This document shows positions 13,917 through 40,939 of a stretch of 42,632 bases of DNA, in pieces. The notes below the pieces were generated by a model. It worked only from the letters and a program-made list of their open reading frames with translations. It ran no database searches and was not told the origin of the DNA. A program made the translations under genes and the position numbers. Source of the stretch: Microcaldota archaeon (lineage in GTDB: Archaea; Micrarchaeota; Micrarchaeia; Micrarchaeales; Micrarchaeaceae); NCBI GenBank assembly GCA_021822165.1, contig JAKARM010000005.1:1-42632 (forward strand), given 5' to 3'. The stretch's first letter is position 1. Every line of letters starts with the position of its first letter.

Positions 13917-14204
13917 ATAATCATACCATCTTATATTGCACTTTAAACAATTCCGCCGAAATATATTAATCCTTTCGGTATTGCCGATAAGTTTCCTTTT
14001 GCCGGGCTATAATGCTTTTTGCGATAAGTATAAATAAATGGGATAATAACCTTTCATAACGTCATATTGGTGCATATATTATTTATCTAAAGCAGGGATT
14101 AAATCTTCCCTACCTGTTTGGTATGCGGCTGCAAGGCATATAGATATAATACTGCCATGTAAAGTTGAATGTCGGGATAAAAGGTTGTGGTGTGGTGTTT
14201 CGCA

Positions 14205-17200
14205 ATGGTTGATCGGCAGTCCAAAGATCTAATCAAACTCCACGATGGGGAAACCCCATATCTTCGGCGCATCCTTTTTGGCAGCATACTGATTGGCGCA
14301 TTCCTGATATTGCTTTTATCCAATTCCTATGGGCAACAGGTAAGGGTGCCATCCAATGGCACCGCAAACCTGAACGCCACCATATCCTATTCCCCCCCTC
14401 CTCTTTTTAGCAATAGCGTAAATCCGCTCAGCGCCGGAATAGACCCAAGCCTCACCCTTACGAATAGCTATTATGTAATAACTTTTTATTACCAGGGAGG
14501 TGCAGGTTCTCTCAGCGGAAGCGCGCAATCGTTAAGCCATGTCCCTGTCACTCCACAGGTGCTGAAATACAATACGCAGAATGCGGCGTGGTTGATAACA
14601 TGCCCCCAGAAACCAAACGTATCTAATTCCTCTGTTTTCTTTACCATAAACCCAACCTATTACATAGGGGGGGATGCCTGCCTGACAGGCTTTTCCCCGC
14701 TCTCGTCTGTAATCCATCTAAATATCAATGTAAATAACCTTTACAACCCCACAAGGGTCATGACTTCCCTCATCAATGCGCCGACAATATCAAATCCAGC
14801 CGCGGCAACATTGACCAATCTTGGATATTCGGGAGAAGCAAACGGGACAAACTCCTTCATATTCAATGTTTCCAACGGCTACAATACGCAATCCTACATA
14901 TTCAAAAATGTCCCGTCTGCCCCACAACAAGGCATATGGTCCTGGCATGTGAGGTATGTGAACCTTTCGGATTCATACATAAAAACTGAGAACAACCTAT
15001 ACCAGAGCAAGTACACGTATACCTTTTATGACGTACCGATAACACAGGCTTTCATGTCGATACAAATAAGGGCGCAGAGTTCGAATACGGCTCTTTTTTG
15101 CATCAAAATATATTTCATTTATATCTGTTTCTGGTTCTGGGGCTGTCTATATAATTACAATTACCACGTCAATGCCTCGTTGAACTATATCGCAAATGCC
15201 AATGTGCCTATCCCTAACCAAAACAACGTCGGCACCTATTCGCCAACGGACTACCTCGACATGAATGGATATATTTATACACCGTTTACCCCTATACCGT
15301 CAACTTCCGGGGGTGCCCTTAGTTGTGCCCATGCCATGTATGACGGGGTGATACAGGATACTCCCGGATGCAGCAGTTTCAAGAGCCCCGTTTCCAGCAC
15401 TGCCGTACTGCATTATAGCGGGGATGTGAACGGGGGGATCGAAAACAACGAATACGTGTATAATAATCCTAAAAATTCCAACACCCTGCTAGTTGCATAC
15501 AAAAGCGCAGGTTCGTCCCTTTCATATCCTTTCGGCCAATGGGAGGAGGGGTATGTCCCTGTGCCACAACATTCCCTCACAACGAATGTTCCCATCGTAC
15601 CATACCTGCTGTATAACATTAGCCTCCCTACGAGAGGGAGCGATATAACCCCAACTAATAACATCCAGTTCCTCAATCTTTCCTTCGATCTTTATAGTCC
15701 GCATAATTACATGAATCCCACAAGTTTCCTGGATCCGATAACGCTCGACACGGGGTCGGCATTTTTCGCGACCACAACCTCTTCCGGCACTCCCGAGCTG
15801 GGCAGGTATCCGAGCGACATATCCAGTACCCCTGACCCCCAGGCCCTTACTGCCCTCCAGACTACATTCCTCACCTCCTTGACTTCTCAAGAAGCTAGTG
15901 ATTTTGCTGCCCACACGGCAACAACGACTCCCTTCCCAATCCGCGGCATAACTCCCCCAATCCCAGGTAGCGTTGCACTGCCAAACGGCTTCCAAACCCT
16001 TCAGGGCCAATACCTATCTGGAACCATATATAACCCAACATTCATAACTTCCGCGCCAAACGATTACGTTTATGTGCTTAATGAATCATCAACGTGCGGG
16101 TTGTTGTGTTTCAATTCCAATAGCAAGACGAACCTTTTTGTATTGAGGTTCATACCTTCCGGCTATTATAACCTATCAAACTTCCAGCCGGATACTGCAA
16201 ATAACGGTCCGGCAGGCGTCGTAAACTTGCAGGAATGGAATAGCAATTGGAATAGCTATTGGAGCAACACCATAATACAGCAGTCCAGCAACCTCTATAT
16301 AACTGGGATCTACCAGCTGTCAAATGTTGCATCTTCCTGGTGGCATCTCTCGAAATCGACAGGAGGCAGCCCTATAGCTGCAAATTTTGCCCCTAGGTAC
16401 ATGACTACCGATTACAACAATGACGTGTTTGTGTTTGGTTATGTGCCCCAGAGCGGTTTCGACATATTCAGCAGCCCGACACTGGAAATAGCGGTTATAC
16501 TCGGTTCCAGCCATCAGGTTGTGAGCGGCGAGATATCCGTTCCAAGCCAATATAGGCCGGTAAAGGATCTGGCTGTGTCGCCAAACGGGAATCTCCTGTA
16601 CCTTGCCAGCCCTGACAGCGGTAATGTGCTGATATATTCGTTTACAGTGTCCGGAACTACTGCGGTATTCACGCTTGTCAAAGTCCTCTCTCTCTCATAC
16701 TCTAATTCCACTGAAAACTTCAATATAGCAGAATATCTTGCTAACGGCGGACCATACGGCAGCTCAAAGATCAGTAGCGCATATAGTTCCGCAAAATCGG
16801 AGTATGATTCTGCCAACTATCATCACCCTCTGGCATTATTTGATTCGAAAGGGATACTTTATGTCCTAGATAACTGGACGTTCCCTGATCCGTCATGCGG
16901 TTCAAGTAGCACCCAATGTTCATCAAGCATATTGATGCTGCGTGCTTTCACGATAAATTTCAATGAAGTTCCGATTTCTGGAAGTTCCAAATCGGATATA
17001 ACAATAAACTCAAATGCTATAATTACAACCCCCCCCAAAGACATCTTGAATTTCAAATACCCTCCTTATGGTTGGCCTCTTTCGGCTAACATTTCACTTC
17101 CTTCTTCCAAACTCGATACTTATTGTGCGGCAGATTGTAATCACATCCCCCCATTATCATATGGCTATCAACCCATAGGGCCTGAAATGAGCAGCACAGG

Positions 17201-19892
17201 ACTCATAAGCCCTTCTGGCAAGCAGGAGTTCGGCATGTATATGGGATTCAACGGGACCTTCTATATGTTGGCCCATTCATATAATTGGTTCTGCCCAACC
17301 TCTACCTATTGTTCACCAAGTTCGCAGTTATATACAGAGCTGTTGGCATTCAAATTCAACATACAAAATTACAGCAAGATATCATATGGGTCGAATTCCC
17401 CATATGTCTGTTACATAAGCACGAATAGCATGAAATCCCCTTGCAATGAATCCATAGCAAGCAACCCCTCCGCACTGAACGACATGCAGACCCCCCTGCT
17501 AGGGGTCCCGAGCTCATTCACATATTCGGAGAACCAGGGCAGCCCATTCGTCGGTCTCAATGTAAACACCGCCCTCGCATCTTTGGTACCTGGCGGGATA
17601 AACCAGGCCCAGCTCAGTTCCGGCACGGCGAACCCCTCTCCCTCGCAAGAGAATACGATAATGGCCAATGGGGTATCATCCTTTTCCAATACGTATAATT
17701 CCGTAGTCGCCAATCCCTCTGCGTTCTTCGGGTTGAGCGCCAACAGCCTTTATCCCACATACATCGATAGCCAGATAAGCGGATACTTTTTGGTTCCATT
17801 CACTTCCAATTATGCCTTGACGCAGAAATGGTACCCACAGCCTACAAAGAAAGGGACGCTCATATTTGACAGAGCCCCATCCAATGTGAACGATAAGGGG
17901 TGCCCACCATATTATCTTCCTATCGGCTCGAGAGGTCCATCTGTCATATTCGTATATCCCTTCGTTACCTATAGCTCCTTCTCCGCTGCAGACGGCGGGC
18001 CCCCGAACCAGGCACCTTACTGCACATCTAAATTCCAGCAACCGAGCAGCTCTGGCAGCAATAATTATGCCAACGACATAGAAAACTGTACGGTATACAC
18101 TTCCGCGATAAGCAGTACAACAATCTCGCAAAACGCGAAAAGTTCGATAGAGGGTGGCCCTACGTACCTCCAATACTTTGTCAACAAGCTGCTTTACCAA
18201 CCAAACCTCTCAGATGCGAATTTGATAATTCCTCCCGTGATCAACATGACCGCATTTACCAACAGGGTGTTCGGCGAAGTATATGTCAACCGTACGATAG
18301 CCTCCTCCGGAACCCTTTCCACCCCTGTGGTGATAAATGCATCGCACCTGCTCGACTACAGGCTGATAACGGTATTGCAGTATCCGTATTATGCCTTCCT
18401 TGGGGGCTATCCTGGTTATGCTGTCGAACAAACGGAGCCGGTCACCCCTCCATCCTTAGGGGTCAATCCCGGCGGTGTAGCATCGTCCTCCGGCGGCGGG
18501 CTGTCCTCTGGGATTCCAGGAATAGGAACGATTATAAATACGGGAAGCCTTACCTCTTCTTTGTCACCGGGGTCGGCTATATCCGGCCTCACATCCGGTA
18601 ATTATTATTACAATCCCTCCTCCGCTCTTAACGAACCTAGCGTCTTTAATTATACGAACACCTCCCAGATACTCCAAGAACCCCTCCAGACCGGCCCTCT
18701 TTTATATAATGAATATTCCAGGGTTGTTTACTTGGATTCTATTTTCCTCCAGCTAAACAACACCCCGCACATCCTGGGATACAACAGGCTCATATTCACC
18801 TATGTAGACAGGTTCAACAACACGATATACATGCCTGTCGACGTGGACTTCGCCAACATGACCACCATACAGCTTAACACGACAGCCAGCGTGGACGTCA
18901 CCAACCCGAACGATACTACCATCACGGTTAATGGGGTCGCTGGGACCTATAATAGCCAATTCTCGTCAACGCTGAATCCACTTCCGGCAAATTCAAAAAT
19001 TTATATCTATTATGATACAAACCTGAATTTTTACAATTCCACCGTCTCCCCACCATCAAGTAAGTATTACCAATATGCCCAAAGGTGTGCTTTTGCGGCA
19101 AACGTCATAAACTGCCCTGTCGCTGACCCGCTTTCTACACTTACACAGGCTGTTAACGGTGTAACCGAGGCGAACGCAGTAACATTCCACACCCAATACC
19201 AGTCGGGCACCACCTGCGCACCGGAGCCAAAAAGCATGTTGAACGTACCTAATTACTACCAATGCAGCATATTCGGTGCGAATTCCCTGCCCGAAACCAG
19301 AAGCCTGCCATCAGATCCCTCGGTCACGGAATACTGCATGCCGATATTCAGTAATGGCATAGGGATCTTTACTTCACAACTCGGCATGGTCAATGTAGTG
19401 AATACCAACGGCGCAGGGGATTTCAACTACGCCTTTAACGTATGCGGTACTGGCGAGGCAAAAATATCGGCGACATATTATGGTTGGCCTCCCCCGGAGC
19501 CGCAACAGTTTTCGCAGTCTCCCCTGTCGTCATCTGTCGCATCGTCTTCGTCTCCCGGCTCCTCTTCCATTATCTCTACAGGGACCTCTCAGATTTCCTC
19601 TGGAATATCATCCAAGATATCCTCAACGGCTTCAAATCTAGTGAATAAGGTGTCCTCATCAATACCTTCTTCTATATCCTCATCCATATCCTCGCCCATT
19701 TCATCACCTACCTCTTCGTCTTCTGGTAATTTTGAATATAATTATACTGATTCGAGCGGGACTGCAAGCCAGTCCGTCAGCATAGGCCTTTATGCTCTAA
19801 AGTTCGGCGACGTCGGGGCGCTGGGTGTGGTGCTCATAGTTCTGGCATTGCTGGCATTCTCATTATTCTCATCAAGAAGTAAGCGGGATTGA
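14205..19892 (+). CDS. Giant surface-anchored protein (about 1,895 residues)
   Basis: A single intact frame. After a basic cytoplasmic start comes an uncleaved or signal-type helix (about residues 23-38), then a very long extracellular part rich in Ser, Thr, Asn and Tyr with many N-glycosylation sequons and scattered Cys. Segments such as DLAVSPNGNLLYLASPDSG (about 786) and GILYVLDNW resemble NHL/YVTN beta-propeller blades. A hydrophobic aromatic patch (about 298-312, IKIYFIYICFWFWGC) is unusual. A Ser-rich linker (about 1765-1840) precedes a C-terminal membrane helix and a basic end. ATG at 14205 follows a GTGGTG site; an upstream in-frame GTG at 14187 is less likely. Likely S-layer or contact protein; family not recognised. 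Confidence 0.85.
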   Translation: MVDRQSKDLIKLHDGETPYLRRILFGSILIGAFLILLLSNSYGQQVRVPSNGTANLNATISYSPPPLFSNSVNPLSAGIDPSLTLTNSYYVITFYYQGGAGSLSGSAQSLSHVPVTPQVLKYNTQNAAWLITCPQKPNVSNSSVFFTINPTYYIGGDACLTGFSPLSSVIHLNINVNNLYNPTRVMTSLINAPTISNPAAATLTNLGYSGEANGTNSFIFNVSNGYNTQSYIFKNVPSAPQQGIWSWHVRYVNLSDSYIKTENNLYQSKYTYTFYDVPITQAFMSIQIRAQSSNTALFCIKIYFIYICFWFWGCLYNYNYHVNASLNYIANANVPIPNQNNVGTYSPTDYLDMNGYIYTPFTPIPSTSGGALSCAHAMYDGVIQDTPGCSSFKSPVSSTAVLHYSGDVNGGIENNEYVYNNPKNSNTLLVAYKSAGSSLSYPFGQWEEGYVPVPQHSLTTNVPIVPYLLYNISLPTRGSDITPTNNIQFLNLSFDLYSPHNYMNPTSFLDPITLDTGSAFFATTTSSGTPELGRYPSDISSTPDPQALTALQTTFLTSLTSQEASDFAAHTATTTPFPIRGITPPIPGSVALPNGFQTLQGQYLSGTIYNPTFITSAPNDYVYVLNESSTCGLLCFNSNSKTNLFVLRFIPSGYYNLSNFQPDTANNGPAGVVNLQEWNSNWNSYWSNTIIQQSSNLYITGIYQLSNVASSWWHLSKSTGGSPIAANFAPRYMTTDYNNDVFVFGYVPQSGFDIFSSPTLEIAVILGSSHQVVSGEISVPSQYRPVKDLAVSPNGNLLYLASPDSGNVLIYSFTVSGTTAVFTLVKVLSLSYSNSTENFNIAEYLANGGPYGSSKISSAYSSAKSEYDSANYHHPLALFDSKGILYVLDNWTFPDPSCGSSSTQCSSSILMLRAFTINFNEVPISGSSKSDITINSNAIITTPPKDILNFKYPPYGWPLSANISLPSSKLDTYCAADCNHIPPLSYGYQPIGPEMSSTGLISPSGKQEFGMYMGFNGTFYMLAHSYNWFCPTSTYCSPSSQLYTELLAFKFNIQNYSKISYGSNSPYVCYISTNSMKSPCNESIASNPSALNDMQTPLLGVPSSFTYSENQGSPFVGLNVNTALASLVPGGINQAQLSSGTANPSPSQENTIMANGVSSFSNTYNSVVANPSAFFGLSANSLYPTYIDSQISGYFLVPFTSNYALTQKWYPQPTKKGTLIFDRAPSNVNDKGCPPYYLPIGSRGPSVIFVYPFVTYSSFSAADGGPPNQAPYCTSKFQQPSSSGSNNYANDIENCTVYTSAISSTTISQNAKSSIEGGPTYLQYFVNKLLYQPNLSDANLIIPPVINMTAFTNRVFGEVYVNRTIASSGTLSTPVVINASHLLDYRLITVLQYPYYAFLGGYPGYAVEQTEPVTPPSLGVNPGGVASSSGGGLSSGIPGIGTIINTGSLTSSLSPGSAISGLTSGNYYYNPSSALNEPSVFNYTNTSQILQEPLQTGPLLYNEYSRVVYLDSIFLQLNNTPHILGYNRLIFTYVDRFNNTIYMPVDVDFANMTTIQLNTTASVDVTNPNDTTITVNGVAGTYNSQFSSTLNPLPANSKIYIYYDTNLNFYNSTVSPPSSKYYQYAQRCAFAANVINCPVADPLSTLTQAVNGVTEANAVTFHTQYQSGTTCAPEPKSMLNVPNYYQCSIFGANSLPETRSLPSDPSVTEYCMPIFSNGIGIFTSQLGMVNVVNTNGAGDFNYAFNVCGTGEAKISATYYGWPPPEPQQFSQSPLSSSVASSSSPGSSSIISTGTSQISSGISSKISSTASNLVNKVSSSIPSSISSSISSPISSPTSSSSGNFEYNYTDSSGTASQSVSIGLYALKFGDVGALGVVLIVLALLAFSLFSSRSKRD

Positions 19893-19921
19893 CCCTTGTT
19901 AATAAGTTATATATACCTGTC

Positions 19922-20869
19922 ATGCAAATCATCAGAGTGGTGCTGGTTGTGCTTCCCTTGCTGTTGAGTATTGGCGCAATATACGCTTTCATACCGATAA
20001 TCATTATAATAATTCTCATAGCCGCGGCTGCGGGGCTGACAAGGGGCTATGACCTGCTAGGGGTATTCGGCATAAGCACGTTGTTCGGATTTGGGAGTTC
20101 GACACGGGGCGGGCTGAAGAGTTTTAAGTACGGCATGACTTCCGATACCCTCAAAAAGAATACAACTAGCTATTTGAAAAAAGTGAAGAGCGCCCCCTCG
20201 CTTCCATCTTATGTCCCTAGTTCTATGATAAAGGCAAAGATATCCAAGGATATGTCTGTGGGCGCCTCGGAAGCTGGAATTCCTGCCGTTATAACATCGG
20301 AGGATCTGGCCAAGCCTCATGTGGCGAAGTTCGCTACGAAACTTGAGGCTCTCAATAGTAGGATGTCCCGTGTGGGGAATAAGATGGCGGGCCTTGAGCA
20401 TCAGGGTATGTTGGGATACGACAAGAATTATCAGGACAATAGAACCCCCAAGCCGAGTTTTTCCAAGACCCTCGCATGGATGCTGACACCTGCTCTCCTT
20501 TCAAAATCCATAAGGTCTATAAAGAAGCACGACATATTGGCCGAGAAGGCAGAGTCTATGGCTGGCCAGAAAGTGGATCTTCAGAACAAGCTGCTTAAGG
20601 CGGCGGATCCAGCAAAGTATAACCAATATTGGGCAAAGGCAAAAGCGGATTTGCTTGCGCACCGTACGGAAGAGGAAAAGAAGTTGCGCCTGCGTAATGT
20701 ACGGACGGACTACTATGCCATTAGCCAAGAGACTAGGCGCAAAAAGAGGGCAGAAAGGATAAAGGCGAAACAGAAGAAACTACGTAAAGCGAATGACGAG
20801 AAGTTTATGGAACAGAACTTCGTGAACCCGCGGTATAAAAAAGAGAACGAACCTCCCCCGCAGCAATAG
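19922..20869 (+). CDS. Membrane protein with long basic cytoplasmic tail, partner of the giant protein
   Basis: About 315 residues. Two N-terminal hydrophobic segments (about residues 4-20 and 22-37) are followed by a Gly-rich stretch and a long Lys/Arg-rich, partly coiled-coil region (about 200-300), ending in PPPQQ. No family recognised. The frame opens with a TTG at 19889 overlapping the giant gene's stop; the ATG at 19922 is the first strong start. A TATA-like TTATATATACC (19907-19917) sits just before it, so transcription could be independent or coupled. Its placement suggests a membrane or cytoplasmic partner for the surface protein. Confidence 0.68.
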   Translation: MQIIRVVLVVLPLLLSIGAIYAFIPIIIIIILIAAAAGLTRGYDLLGVFGISTLFGFGSSTRGGLKSFKYGMTSDTLKKNTTSYLKKVKSAPSLPSYVPSSMIKAKISKDMSVGASEAGIPAVITSEDLAKPHVAKFATKLEALNSRMSRVGNKMAGLEHQGMLGYDKNYQDNRTPKPSFSKTLAWMLTPALLSKSIRSIKKHDILAEKAESMAGQKVDLQNKLLKAADPAKYNQYWAKAKADLLAHRTEEEKKLRLRNVRTDYYAISQETRRKKRAERIKAKQKKLRKANDEKFMEQNFVNPRYKKENEPPPQQ

Positions 20870-25214: not shown

Positions 25215-25301
25215 GCCGCAGTAGCTCAGTGGGAGAGCGTCCGGCTGAAGATGTAACGATTAGATACCGGAAAGTCGCCGGTTCAAATCCGGCCTGCGGC
25301 A
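25215..25301 (+). tRNA. tRNA-Phe(GAA) with 15-base anticodon-loop intron
   Basis: Acceptor GCCGCAG/CTGCGGC, D arm GCTC-AGTGGGA-GAGC, anticodon stem TCCGG/CCGGA. The intron is 25251-25265, between positions 37 and 38, leaving loop CTGAAGA (anticodon GAA). The splice motif is clear: central helix CTGA/TTAG, bulges AGA and ATA. T arm GCCGG-TTCAAAT-CCGGC. No CCA encoded. Confidence 0.93.
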
Positions 25302-25329
25302 CTGTTAGGGCTGTATGTATGGCATGCAC

Positions 25330-37807: not shown

Positions 37808-40800
37808 TTACCCGCCTGCGGCTCTTTCTATTCCTATGCCGATATGCCTGTCCTGTATCTCAAATTCCTTCATTCCCTCCCTATGGTCCACCATCCGTAT
37901 CCTTCTCGCCTTGGTGATCTCTTTAATCCTCTTCCTTTCCGAATCTATCGCTTCGAGCAGCTCCCTGTCGGAATTAATGAATACCTCTATCATATCCGCC
38001 CTTGTCAATCCCATCTCCTTCCTCATTACCTGTATCCTCCTTATCGTTTCTCTTACAAAGAGCTCCCTCCTCGTCTCCTCCGTCGCGCTTGAATCTATCC
38101 TTATGGATCCGTATTTCGTCTGAAGCGCGTCTTCGCCGCCTCCAGCATCCACTATCTCGAAATGGTCGGCCCTTATCCTGAATGTTCCGGCTGTAGTTTG
38201 CAATTTATACTCTCCGTTCATCTTGATCTCTCTTTCCACGGAATCTGCATCCTGCCTGCCTAGCTCCATTGCTATGGCCTGCGCCGCTTTCTTGAAGTCG
38301 GGTCCTAGTTTCGCAAAGAGAGGCCTGATCGTTCTTCCCCTCTGGGTGTCCTGCCTGGTCTCTATCTCCATCGTATTGGTGTATTCCCCAATCAGCCCCT
38401 TCACCTCCTCCAATGCCTTTATGTCCCCGGCATCCTTTGCCTCTATCATAGCCCTCCTGAGCGGCTGCCTCAGCTTTATGTTATCTTTGTCCCTGAGATT
38501 AAGTATCCCGTTGGAGATCTCTCTCACGATGTCGAATTCTTTTTCTATACCCGGATTGTAAAACCAGCGCGGCGTCCTTGCCCATCCGTTCATGAATATG
38601 CTGCTCCTGTCGCTGCTGAAGAGGTCCTGGTAGAGGTATTCGCATGTGAGCGGCATAACCGTAGATGCAACTATCAGCGTAGTCCTGAGGAGATACGAGG
38701 TAAGGATTGCGATCCTCTTCATTTCCGCCCTTCCTGCAGTGGCGGCCCTGTTCTTCACGAACTTGAGGTAGAACCTGCTCATGTCCTCTATTATGAAGTT
38801 CTTTATATCTGCGGTCGCGGCATCCGTCTGGTAGCTGTCAAGCGCCTTGCCCACATTGCTGACCAGCGAGCCGAGCCTTGAAAGCACCCATAGGTCCTCC
38901 TTCCTTGCGCTCTTCCTGCTCGGAGCTCTAGCCTCCCTGGTATCGTACCCCGCGGCAGAGGACAGCTCCCTGACGAGCTCGGCGATATTATACAATGTTA
39001 CTATGTTCCTGTCCGCCTCGTTCAGCTCGCTTTTCTTCAGTTTAAGGTCCTGCCATCTCGGGTGGCCGGAGCACCAGAGCCGGTATCCGTCGGCAGAGAC
39101 GATCGTGAGCAGGTCGTCGGCATTGACTGCATTGCCGAGGTGCCTGTGCATCTCATTGCCCAGCTCGTCGAATATTATGCCGCCTATGGTCACTTCCTTG
39201 AACGGCGTCTTGCCGTATACCGCGACGGATGTCTTGAGGAGCGTCGAGAACCATCCCCTTATCTGGTCCCTCCCCTCCGTTATCCAGTCTGCGGGGAATA
39301 GCCCCTCGAACTCGCTTTCCGTAAGGCTCGCGGTGTGGGCTATCCCGGAATCATACCAGACATCGAATATGTCCTCTATCCTCCTTGATTCGGATCCGCA
39401 CTTTTCGCATCTTATATGTATATTGTCGACATGCGGCCTGTGGGGGTCTTTAGGCGCCTCGCCGAGTCCGGCCCTCTCCCTCAGCTCCTCCAGGGATCCT
39501 ATCACCTCCCTTTCGCCGCACCCGCTGCATATCCATATCGGTATCGGTATCCCCCAGAACCTCTGTCTCGATATGCACCAGTCTGGGGATTCACGCAGGG
39601 CATCATTCTGCCATCCCTTCGCCTTCTCCGGGTGCCATTTGACCTTCGAGTTCTCCGATACCAGCTTCTTTTTTATCTTCTGCATATCGATGAACCACTG
39701 TTCTGTCGCCTTGTATATCAACTTGCTTTCGCACCTGTCGCAATTGGGGTAGCTGTGCGTCACCGTACCCTTGAACAGCAGATCCCCCTTCTTCTCAAGG
39801 TCTGCCATCACGCTTTCGTTCGCCTCCTTAGGCACCAAGAGCCCTACATACTTCCCCGCCTCCTCCGTGTACCTGGCATTCCTGTCGACCGGGGAGAATA
39901 CGGGAATCTTCGCCCTTCTCGTTACCTTATAGTCCTCGATCCCGTGCCCAGGGGCGATATGCACCATTCCTGTGCCTTCGGAGACGGAGACGAGCTTTCT
40001 ATCCATGATTACCCTGTGGTATTTAGCAAACTTCTTTTGGATGGGGACTTCCTCCTCGAGCGGGCTCGCGTAAGCGATTCCGGCAAGTTCGCTTCCGGGG
40101 AACTCCTCTTTCACTATTGCGTTGCTGCCTGTTGCATCGATGAAATTGCCCAGCCTTTCCTTAGCCAGTATGTACACCACCCCGTCAGAGTATGCCTTGA
40201 TGTATGTTGCATCAGGATTGGCGGCAATCGCCATATTGGCAGGAAGGGTCCATGGGGTCGTGGTCCATATGACCAAATAAGTGGGGTGCTCTGCCTTCAC
40301 CCCGTGGCCTTTCCCTTCCAGAATCCTGAACCTCACGAATATCGACGGGTCCGTGCTGTCGGAATATGCGACTTCCGGGCCCTGGGCTGACAGTGCCGTA
40401 CCGCAGTGCGGGCAATAGGCTATAGGTTCGCTGTCCTTGTAGACCATCCCCTTGTCATATATCTTCTTGAACATCTTCCATGCCGCGTCGATATACCCGC
40501 TTTTATACGAAATATACATGTTTTCGAAATCGAGGGATATGCCGAACCTTGTCGCCATCCTTACGGCGTTCTCCACGTTCCCTTCGGCATAGGATCTGCA
40601 TGCCTCTACAAAGTTGGCGATGCCTACCTTGTCCTTTATGTCGTCCTTGGAGAGGATACCGAGCTTCCTCTCTACCTTGTTTTCTATCGGCAGCCCATGC
40701 ACGTCAAACCCGGCCCTGTCGTGGACGTTAAATCCCCTGTACCTCTTGTACCTGATCATGATGTCCTTTATCACGTATACCCATATGTGGTGGCTTGCCA

Positions 40801-40939
40801 GGGACCCGCTCGCATATGGCGGCCCGTCCAAGAAATAGAATTTCTTGCCCAAGGAATTCTTCTCCCTGGTCTTTTGGTTGGCATCCCCCTCCTTCCAGTA
40901 GCTAAGCGTGCGTTCTTCATTCTCTTTGAGGTCCAACAC
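37808..40939 (-). CDS. ileS: Isoleucyl-tRNA synthetase with altered signature motifs
   Basis: 1,043 residues, archaeal/eukaryotic-type IleRS. The Rossmann core start GPPYASGSLASHHI, the editing (CP1) domain with TTPWTLPANMAI and GTGMVHIAPGHGIEDY, Zn pairs (CPHC, CDRC, CEKC, CSGC) and the C-terminal anticodon-binding domain are all present. Unusually, HIGH reads A-S-H-H (residues 48-51) and KMSKS reads E-M-H-R-H (596-600). The A-x-H-H form resembles the G-x-H-H motif of some bacterial IleRS2 that are hyper-resistant to mupirocin. GTG start (TTG next). No second ileS is seen in this window. Confidence 0.93.
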   Translation of the reverse strand: MLDLKENEERTLSYWKEGDANQKTREKNSLGKKFYFLDGPPYASGSLASHHIWVYVIKDIMIRYKRYRGFNVHDRAGFDVHGLPIENKVERKLGILSKDDIKDKVGIANFVEACRSYAEGNVENAVRMATRFGISLDFENMYISYKSGYIDAAWKMFKKIYDKGMVYKDSEPIAYCPHCGTALSAQGPEVAYSDSTDPSIFVRFRILEGKGHGVKAEHPTYLVIWTTTPWTLPANMAIAANPDATYIKAYSDGVVYILAKERLGNFIDATGSNAIVKEEFPGSELAGIAYASPLEEEVPIQKKFAKYHRVIMDRKLVSVSEGTGMVHIAPGHGIEDYKVTRRAKIPVFSPVDRNARYTEEAGKYVGLLVPKEANESVMADLEKKGDLLFKGTVTHSYPNCDRCESKLIYKATEQWFIDMQKIKKKLVSENSKVKWHPEKAKGWQNDALRESPDWCISRQRFWGIPIPIWICSGCGEREVIGSLEELRERAGLGEAPKDPHRPHVDNIHIRCEKCGSESRRIEDIFDVWYDSGIAHTASLTESEFEGLFPADWITEGRDQIRGWFSTLLKTSVAVYGKTPFKEVTIGGIIFDELGNEMHRHLGNAVNADDLLTIVSADGYRLWCSGHPRWQDLKLKKSELNEADRNIVTLYNIAELVRELSSAAGYDTREARAPSRKSARKEDLWVLSRLGSLVSNVGKALDSYQTDAATADIKNFIIEDMSRFYLKFVKNRAATAGRAEMKRIAILTSYLLRTTLIVASTVMPLTCEYLYQDLFSSDRSSIFMNGWARTPRWFYNPGIEKEFDIVREISNGILNLRDKDNIKLRQPLRRAMIEAKDAGDIKALEEVKGLIGEYTNTMEIETRQDTQRGRTIRPLFAKLGPDFKKAAQAIAMELGRQDADSVEREIKMNGEYKLQTTAGTFRIRADHFEIVDAGGGEDALQTKYGSIRIDSSATEETRRELFVRETIRRIQVMRKEMGLTRADMIEVFINSDRELLEAIDSERKRIKEITKARRIRMVDHREGMKEFEIQDRHIGIGIERAAGG

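Follow-up and report, generated by a model that had tools for sequence, protein, structure and literature searches.

HIGH and KMSKS are the textbook invariants that define class I aminoacyl-tRNA synthetases. Departures from HIGH have been described in isoleucyl-tRNA synthetases (IleRS), for which a 2023 study, whose tree held 41 archaeal IleRS, reports a G/AXHH version in bacterial IleRS2 only (PMC10485003). In these mupirocin-hyper-resistant enzymes, for example those of Streptomyces griseus and Deinococcus radiodurans (ALHH), the histidine has moved from position 1 to position 3 of the motif, Gly or Ala occupies position 1 and the rest of the type 2 IleRS is intact (PMC10485003). The structure of Priestia megaterium IleRS2 shows that the third His of GXHH substitutes for the first and that the adenine is not displaced (PMC10485003). 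With the swap, the Ki for mupirocin goes up roughly 200-fold in IleRS2 of T. thermophilus and roughly 430-fold in the P. megaterium enzyme; undoing it in IleRS2 of D. radiodurans brings the Ki down 823-fold, so that the effect spans about 200-fold to 10^3-fold (PMC10485003).

The window considered here, the whole 42,632-nt stretch of contig JAKARM010000005.1 from a Micrarchaeota genome, carries on its minus strand an ileS gene (positions 37808-40939, exactly as in the original prediction) that encodes 1043 aa from a GTG start and was delimited from its open reading frame, profile match, Pfam domains and an AlphaFold2 model. Its product, the window IleRS, matches the full profile of the IleRS equivalog TIGR00392 with 759-761 bits, above the curated cut-off of 621.4, and contains the Pfam domains tRNA-synt_1, Anticodon_1 and DUF5915. 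Based on Pfam, motifs and the model, the Rossmann core, the CP1 editing motifs and the anticodon-binding domain are all present; the CP1 editing-site strand WTTTPWTLPAN (residues 225-235, positions 40235-40267, minus strand) is intact in the sequence, as are GHGIEDY, the FDVHG stretch and RDQIRGWF. The AlphaFold2 model, computed from an alignment of 54 relatives and numbered as residue number minus one, has a mean pLDDT of 89.7 and superposes on solved type 2 IleRS with VIA-align Z scores of 38-43 (Z 42-43 and rmsd 2.9-5.5 Å over 861-989 residues for the yeast and bacterial type 2 enzymes). Judged from the model, the fold of the window IleRS is intact, which bears out the initial claim that the domains outside the motifs are undisturbed, and by all sequence criteria applied the enzyme is full-length and functional.

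We located the signature sites by aligning the window IleRS with the solved T. thermophilus enzyme (1ile) and with IleRS2 of P. megaterium, and found both sites rewritten, as originally predicted. Where the solved enzymes have HIGH, and canonical class I synthetases HxGH or HxGT, the window IleRS reads ASHH (residues 48-51, codons GCA AGC CAC CAC, positions 40787-40798, minus strand), so that positions 1 and 3 of HxGH are swapped with Ala standing for Gly. In place of KMSKS it has EMHRH (residues 596-600, codons GAG ATG CAC AGG CAC, positions 39140-39154, minus strand). Between the two lies HTASL (residues 535-539, positions 39323-39337, minus strand, read from the sequence), whose His535-Thr536 is invariant in all 36 members of the A/GxHH clade described below and mostly Phe-Arg in the remaining members of the order. 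Elsewhere in the window, a 1901-aa open reading frame (positions 14187-19892, plus strand) and the 326-aa frame directly after it (19889-20869) have no Pfam match, and ARAGORN reports a tRNA with undefined anticodon (25215-25302, plus strand) adjoining a tRNA-Gly, possibly reflecting an intron or an unusual loop.

The same motif pair recurs in relatives about 47-58% identical to the window IleRS from dozens of separately assembled metagenome-assembled genomes (MAGs), and is therefore neither chance nor sequencing error; with codons that differ among these independent assemblies, an error in both motifs is so improbable as to be negligible. It is also very improbable that the window ileS is a decaying or dedicated paralogue with a canonical ileS elsewhere in the genome. 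The source assembly (784 kb) is just 89% complete and in 37 contigs, which leaves some room for such a gene, but it holds one IleRS, its remaining TIGR00392 matches being ValRS, LeuRS, CysRS and MetRS. The original prediction had called for a search for a second ileS, and we detected none in this 89% complete genome or in its 40 nearest relatives, single-contig genomes among them. A strong match to the window IleRS is present in 146 of 164 genomes of the order, nearly always single, and the few genomes with two matches appear to hold genes split across contigs. Moreover, the sole IleRS of three single-contig genomes is of the A/GxHH type (GFYH in G008, GVHH in G009 and ASHH in G027), which removes the main objection foreseen at the outset, a canonical second copy beside a decaying one. 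Between pairs of A/GxHH genes dN/dS is low (0.03-0.12), indicating purifying selection, and the motif codons vary synonymously. The motifs shared among relatives, the sole-copy status and the dN/dS values together rule out error or decay.

To place the two changes within the order, we set 131 distinct IleRS from its members against 30 from other orders of the same class. All 30 outgroup sequences keep the position-1 His, and nearly all read HPGT/KMSKS. Within the order, A/G-x-H/Y-H occurs in 36 of the 131 IleRS, spread over both families, and every one of the 36 carries [E/Q/I]-x-H-R-[H/S/N] at the KMSKS site, while the other 95 keep His1 and Lys4; Micrarchaeota genomes with the paired change (A/G-x-H/Y-H with x-x-H-R-x) number at least 36 in this one order. 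No mixed states were found among 160 sequences, either for His1/Lys4 versus A/G1/Arg4 (124 and 36) or for Lys1 with Ser3 or Gly3 versus non-Lys1 with His3 (54 and 106). In a tree built without the motif columns, the 36 A/GxHH sequences form a single clade with 100% support, which retains its motifs across deep divergence (about 50% identity). On the trees, A/G1 and Arg4 have essentially one origin in the order (one or two independent events), so their perfect pairing is by itself no proof of functional coupling. K1 and S3 change jointly in six of six independent contrasts on a 100-sequence tree (p 0.03), and on these sequences their linkage is better supported than a coupling of A/G1 to Arg4.

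The motifs vary further on both sides of this clade boundary. Four sub-lineages of the A/GxHH clade (L017, L036, L055/L058 and L074) have GxYH, with His at neither position 1 nor position 3, and within one genus GVHH and GVYH differ by a single CAC/TAC change. Other members of the order combine HPGQ with EMHKK, HPGH or HPAQ with KMSKS, HLGG with EMHKK and HMGH with AMHKS, among others. The HPGQ/EMHKK and HPGH/KMSKS enzymes belong to the same archaeal-type family, are likewise the sole IleRS and share about 39-46% identity with the window IleRS, but unlike it they retain His1 of HIGH and Lys4 of KMSKS. An exact DNA pattern search for EMHRHLGN returned 41 stretches among 84,980 GTDB species, mostly in Candidatus Micrarchaeota MAGs, with a few labelled Marsarchaeota that carry the same gene. 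The pattern gave no match in the viral contigs searched, which speaks against a phage or virus as the source of EMHRH.

The original prediction had pointed to bacterial precedent for ASHH, and this holds: the motif conforms to the G/A-x-H-H pattern that defines the G/AXHH IleRS2 (Brkic et al. 2023; PMC10485003). The window IleRS is nonetheless not a member of the bacterial IleRS2 clades. In the 100-sequence tree, which sampled IleRS2 from actinobacteria, Bathyarchaeota and Armatimonadota-type genomes, the A/GxHH clade of Micrarchaeota is nested in archaeal-type Micrarchaeota IleRS with 100% support, whereas the bacterial-type G/AXHH enzymes form a separate clade (99%), and a topology constrained to unite every A/GxHH sequence in a single clade is rejected (p-AU 1.8e-6). 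The tree and the AU test rule out transfer from bacterial G/AXHH IleRS2, and on this phylogenetic evidence we conclude that an archaeal-type IleRS gained the His swap independently. The two groups also differ at the second signature, the sampled actinobacterial G/AXHH IleRS2 being mostly KMSKS or KMSKH. The staphylococcal MupA and MupB are likewise IleRS2-type enzymes that confer mupirocin resistance; MupA has canonical HAGH/KMSKS (L320), unlike the window IleRS, which scores only 459 and 481 bits against the MupA/MupB models NF000257 and NF000258 (cut-offs 1900).

A glutamate in the KMSKS site had been thought to be without precedent, and this proved wrong. E/A/P-M-H-K-S occurs frequently among archaeal IleRS from the phylum that includes Bathyarchaeota (L240-L267, EMHKS or AMHKS), which share with the window IleRS the changes of K1 to E, A or P and of S3 to H but, unlike it, keep Lys4 and the canonical His at HIGH position 1 (HVGT, HIGT or HLGT). 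It is also present in the 'GPITANNPMGVHHAWGR' group of GXHH-type IleRS2 from Bathyarchaeota and Armatimonadota-type bacteria, in which, as in the window IleRS, both motifs are altered (EMHKS), and two Bathyarchaeota MAGs of this group (L189 and L209) combine GVHH with an EMHRH identical to that of the window IleRS. These enzymes fall in the bacterial-type clade, are about one-third identical to the window protein and mostly have Lys4. The ValRS of the source genome (L002, G000:C15) carries HIGQ with EMHKS. With E/A/P-M-H-K-S so widespread, Glu in KMSKS is not new, although we found no description of EMHKS/MHKS variants in the literature searched. Arg at position 4 is rare and, among the IleRS examined, confined to A/GxHH backgrounds. 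By sequence comparison, the unusual part is narrower than first proposed: the swap in an archaeal-type IleRS together with Lys to Arg at KMSKS position 4. EMHRH was also seen in CysRS-like proteins of Armatimonadota/'ANGP1'-type bacteria (L182, L183, L196, L197, L198, L205, L206 and L208), with a canonical HVGH in the sequences inspected.

We consider it likely that the window IleRS is the working, sole housekeeping enzyme, in which His50 takes the part of His48 and Arg599 that of the second motif Lys, and from which mupirocin-type inhibitors are excluded. By analogy to the bacterial enzymes, His50, at HIGH position 3, would give its imidazole to the transition state of amino-acid activation in the stead of His48, and Arg599 would, by homology, retain the catalytic positive charge. 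Glu596 and His598 would have replaced Lys1 and Ser3 jointly, before the HIGH change, since the pair is common to the HPGQ/EMHKK relatives. The position-3 His would be expected to clash with mupirocin-like adenylate mimics, so that strong mupirocin resistance is predicted for the window IleRS; exclusion of such inhibitors would most likely have arisen as a side effect or through selection. The GxYH sub-lineages imply that the third His is dispensable, and an account based on its takeover is to that extent incomplete. Most sampled bacterial G/AXHH IleRS2, moreover, retain Lys4, which also counts against this reading.

The variant may have been selected, and have spread by horizontal transfer, as a locus that resists mupirocin-like inhibitors from co-occurring microbes, a reading we hold tentatively and think rather unlikely. 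The swap is identical to that of the hyper-resistant bacterial IleRS2 (PMC10485003), and archaeal IleRS is a target of pseudomonic acid, the M. barkeri resistance marker ileS12 having been obtained by mutagenesis (PMC3403347); no resistance context was observed beside the window ileS, however. The IleRS types cut across taxonomy in both families, with more than one type in 10 of 49 genera. Genus g4 holds the A/GxHH, EMHKx and KMSKS types, and mean identities there are 47% for IleRS versus 52% for ValRS in different-type pairs and 61% and 59%, respectively, in same-type pairs, which favours transfer of ileS. Such patchiness could also result from ancient paralogues sorted by loss or from errors in MAG taxonomy, and transfer of ValRS is another possible explanation of the g4 pattern. 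Ten genera of the order, g4 among them, each contain two to three motif types; such mixing suggests that ileS, an essential gene, was often replaced.

Alternatively, relaxed selection in small symbiont genomes may have let the motifs wander with compensation and without any inhibitor, which is conceivable though we lean against it. The many motif combinations in the order fit such drift, as do the linked and seemingly compensatory K1/S3 changes and the altered ValRS of the same genomes (HIGQ/EMHKS, SMGT/MMHRS and SVGH/PMHKS), but the low dN/dS and the retention of the A/GxHH motifs at about 50% identity do not, nor do the near-canonical motifs of LeuRS, CysRS and MetRS in the source genome. 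The two ValRS without His1, SMGT/MMHRS in G133 (L330) and SVGH/PMHKS in G032 (L381), both come from genomes with an A/GxHH IleRS. A bolder proposal, which we regard as doubtful, is that one archaeal lineage independently built a further working class I active site in A/GxHH IleRS, without His1 or Lys1 and with Arg for the second Lys (Tyr even taking the place of the relocated His in GxYH), and that this version passes between species as an allele conferring inhibitor resistance.

What is new here is an A/GxHH IleRS of archaeal type that arose by convergence and has ExHR in its KMSKS loop. Within one order it forms part of a natural series that runs through KMSKS, EMHKK and EMHRH at one site and HPGH, HPGQ, AxHH and GxYH at the other and includes 36 diverse, fully rewired members, so that the motif residues that are needed and the order of their exchange can be tested directly. 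By convergence, a motif of mupirocin hyper-resistance is extended from bacterial IleRS2 to archaeal-type enzymes, which suggests, by analogy, that the inhibitor pressure on the bacterial enzymes may extend to archaeal IleRS.
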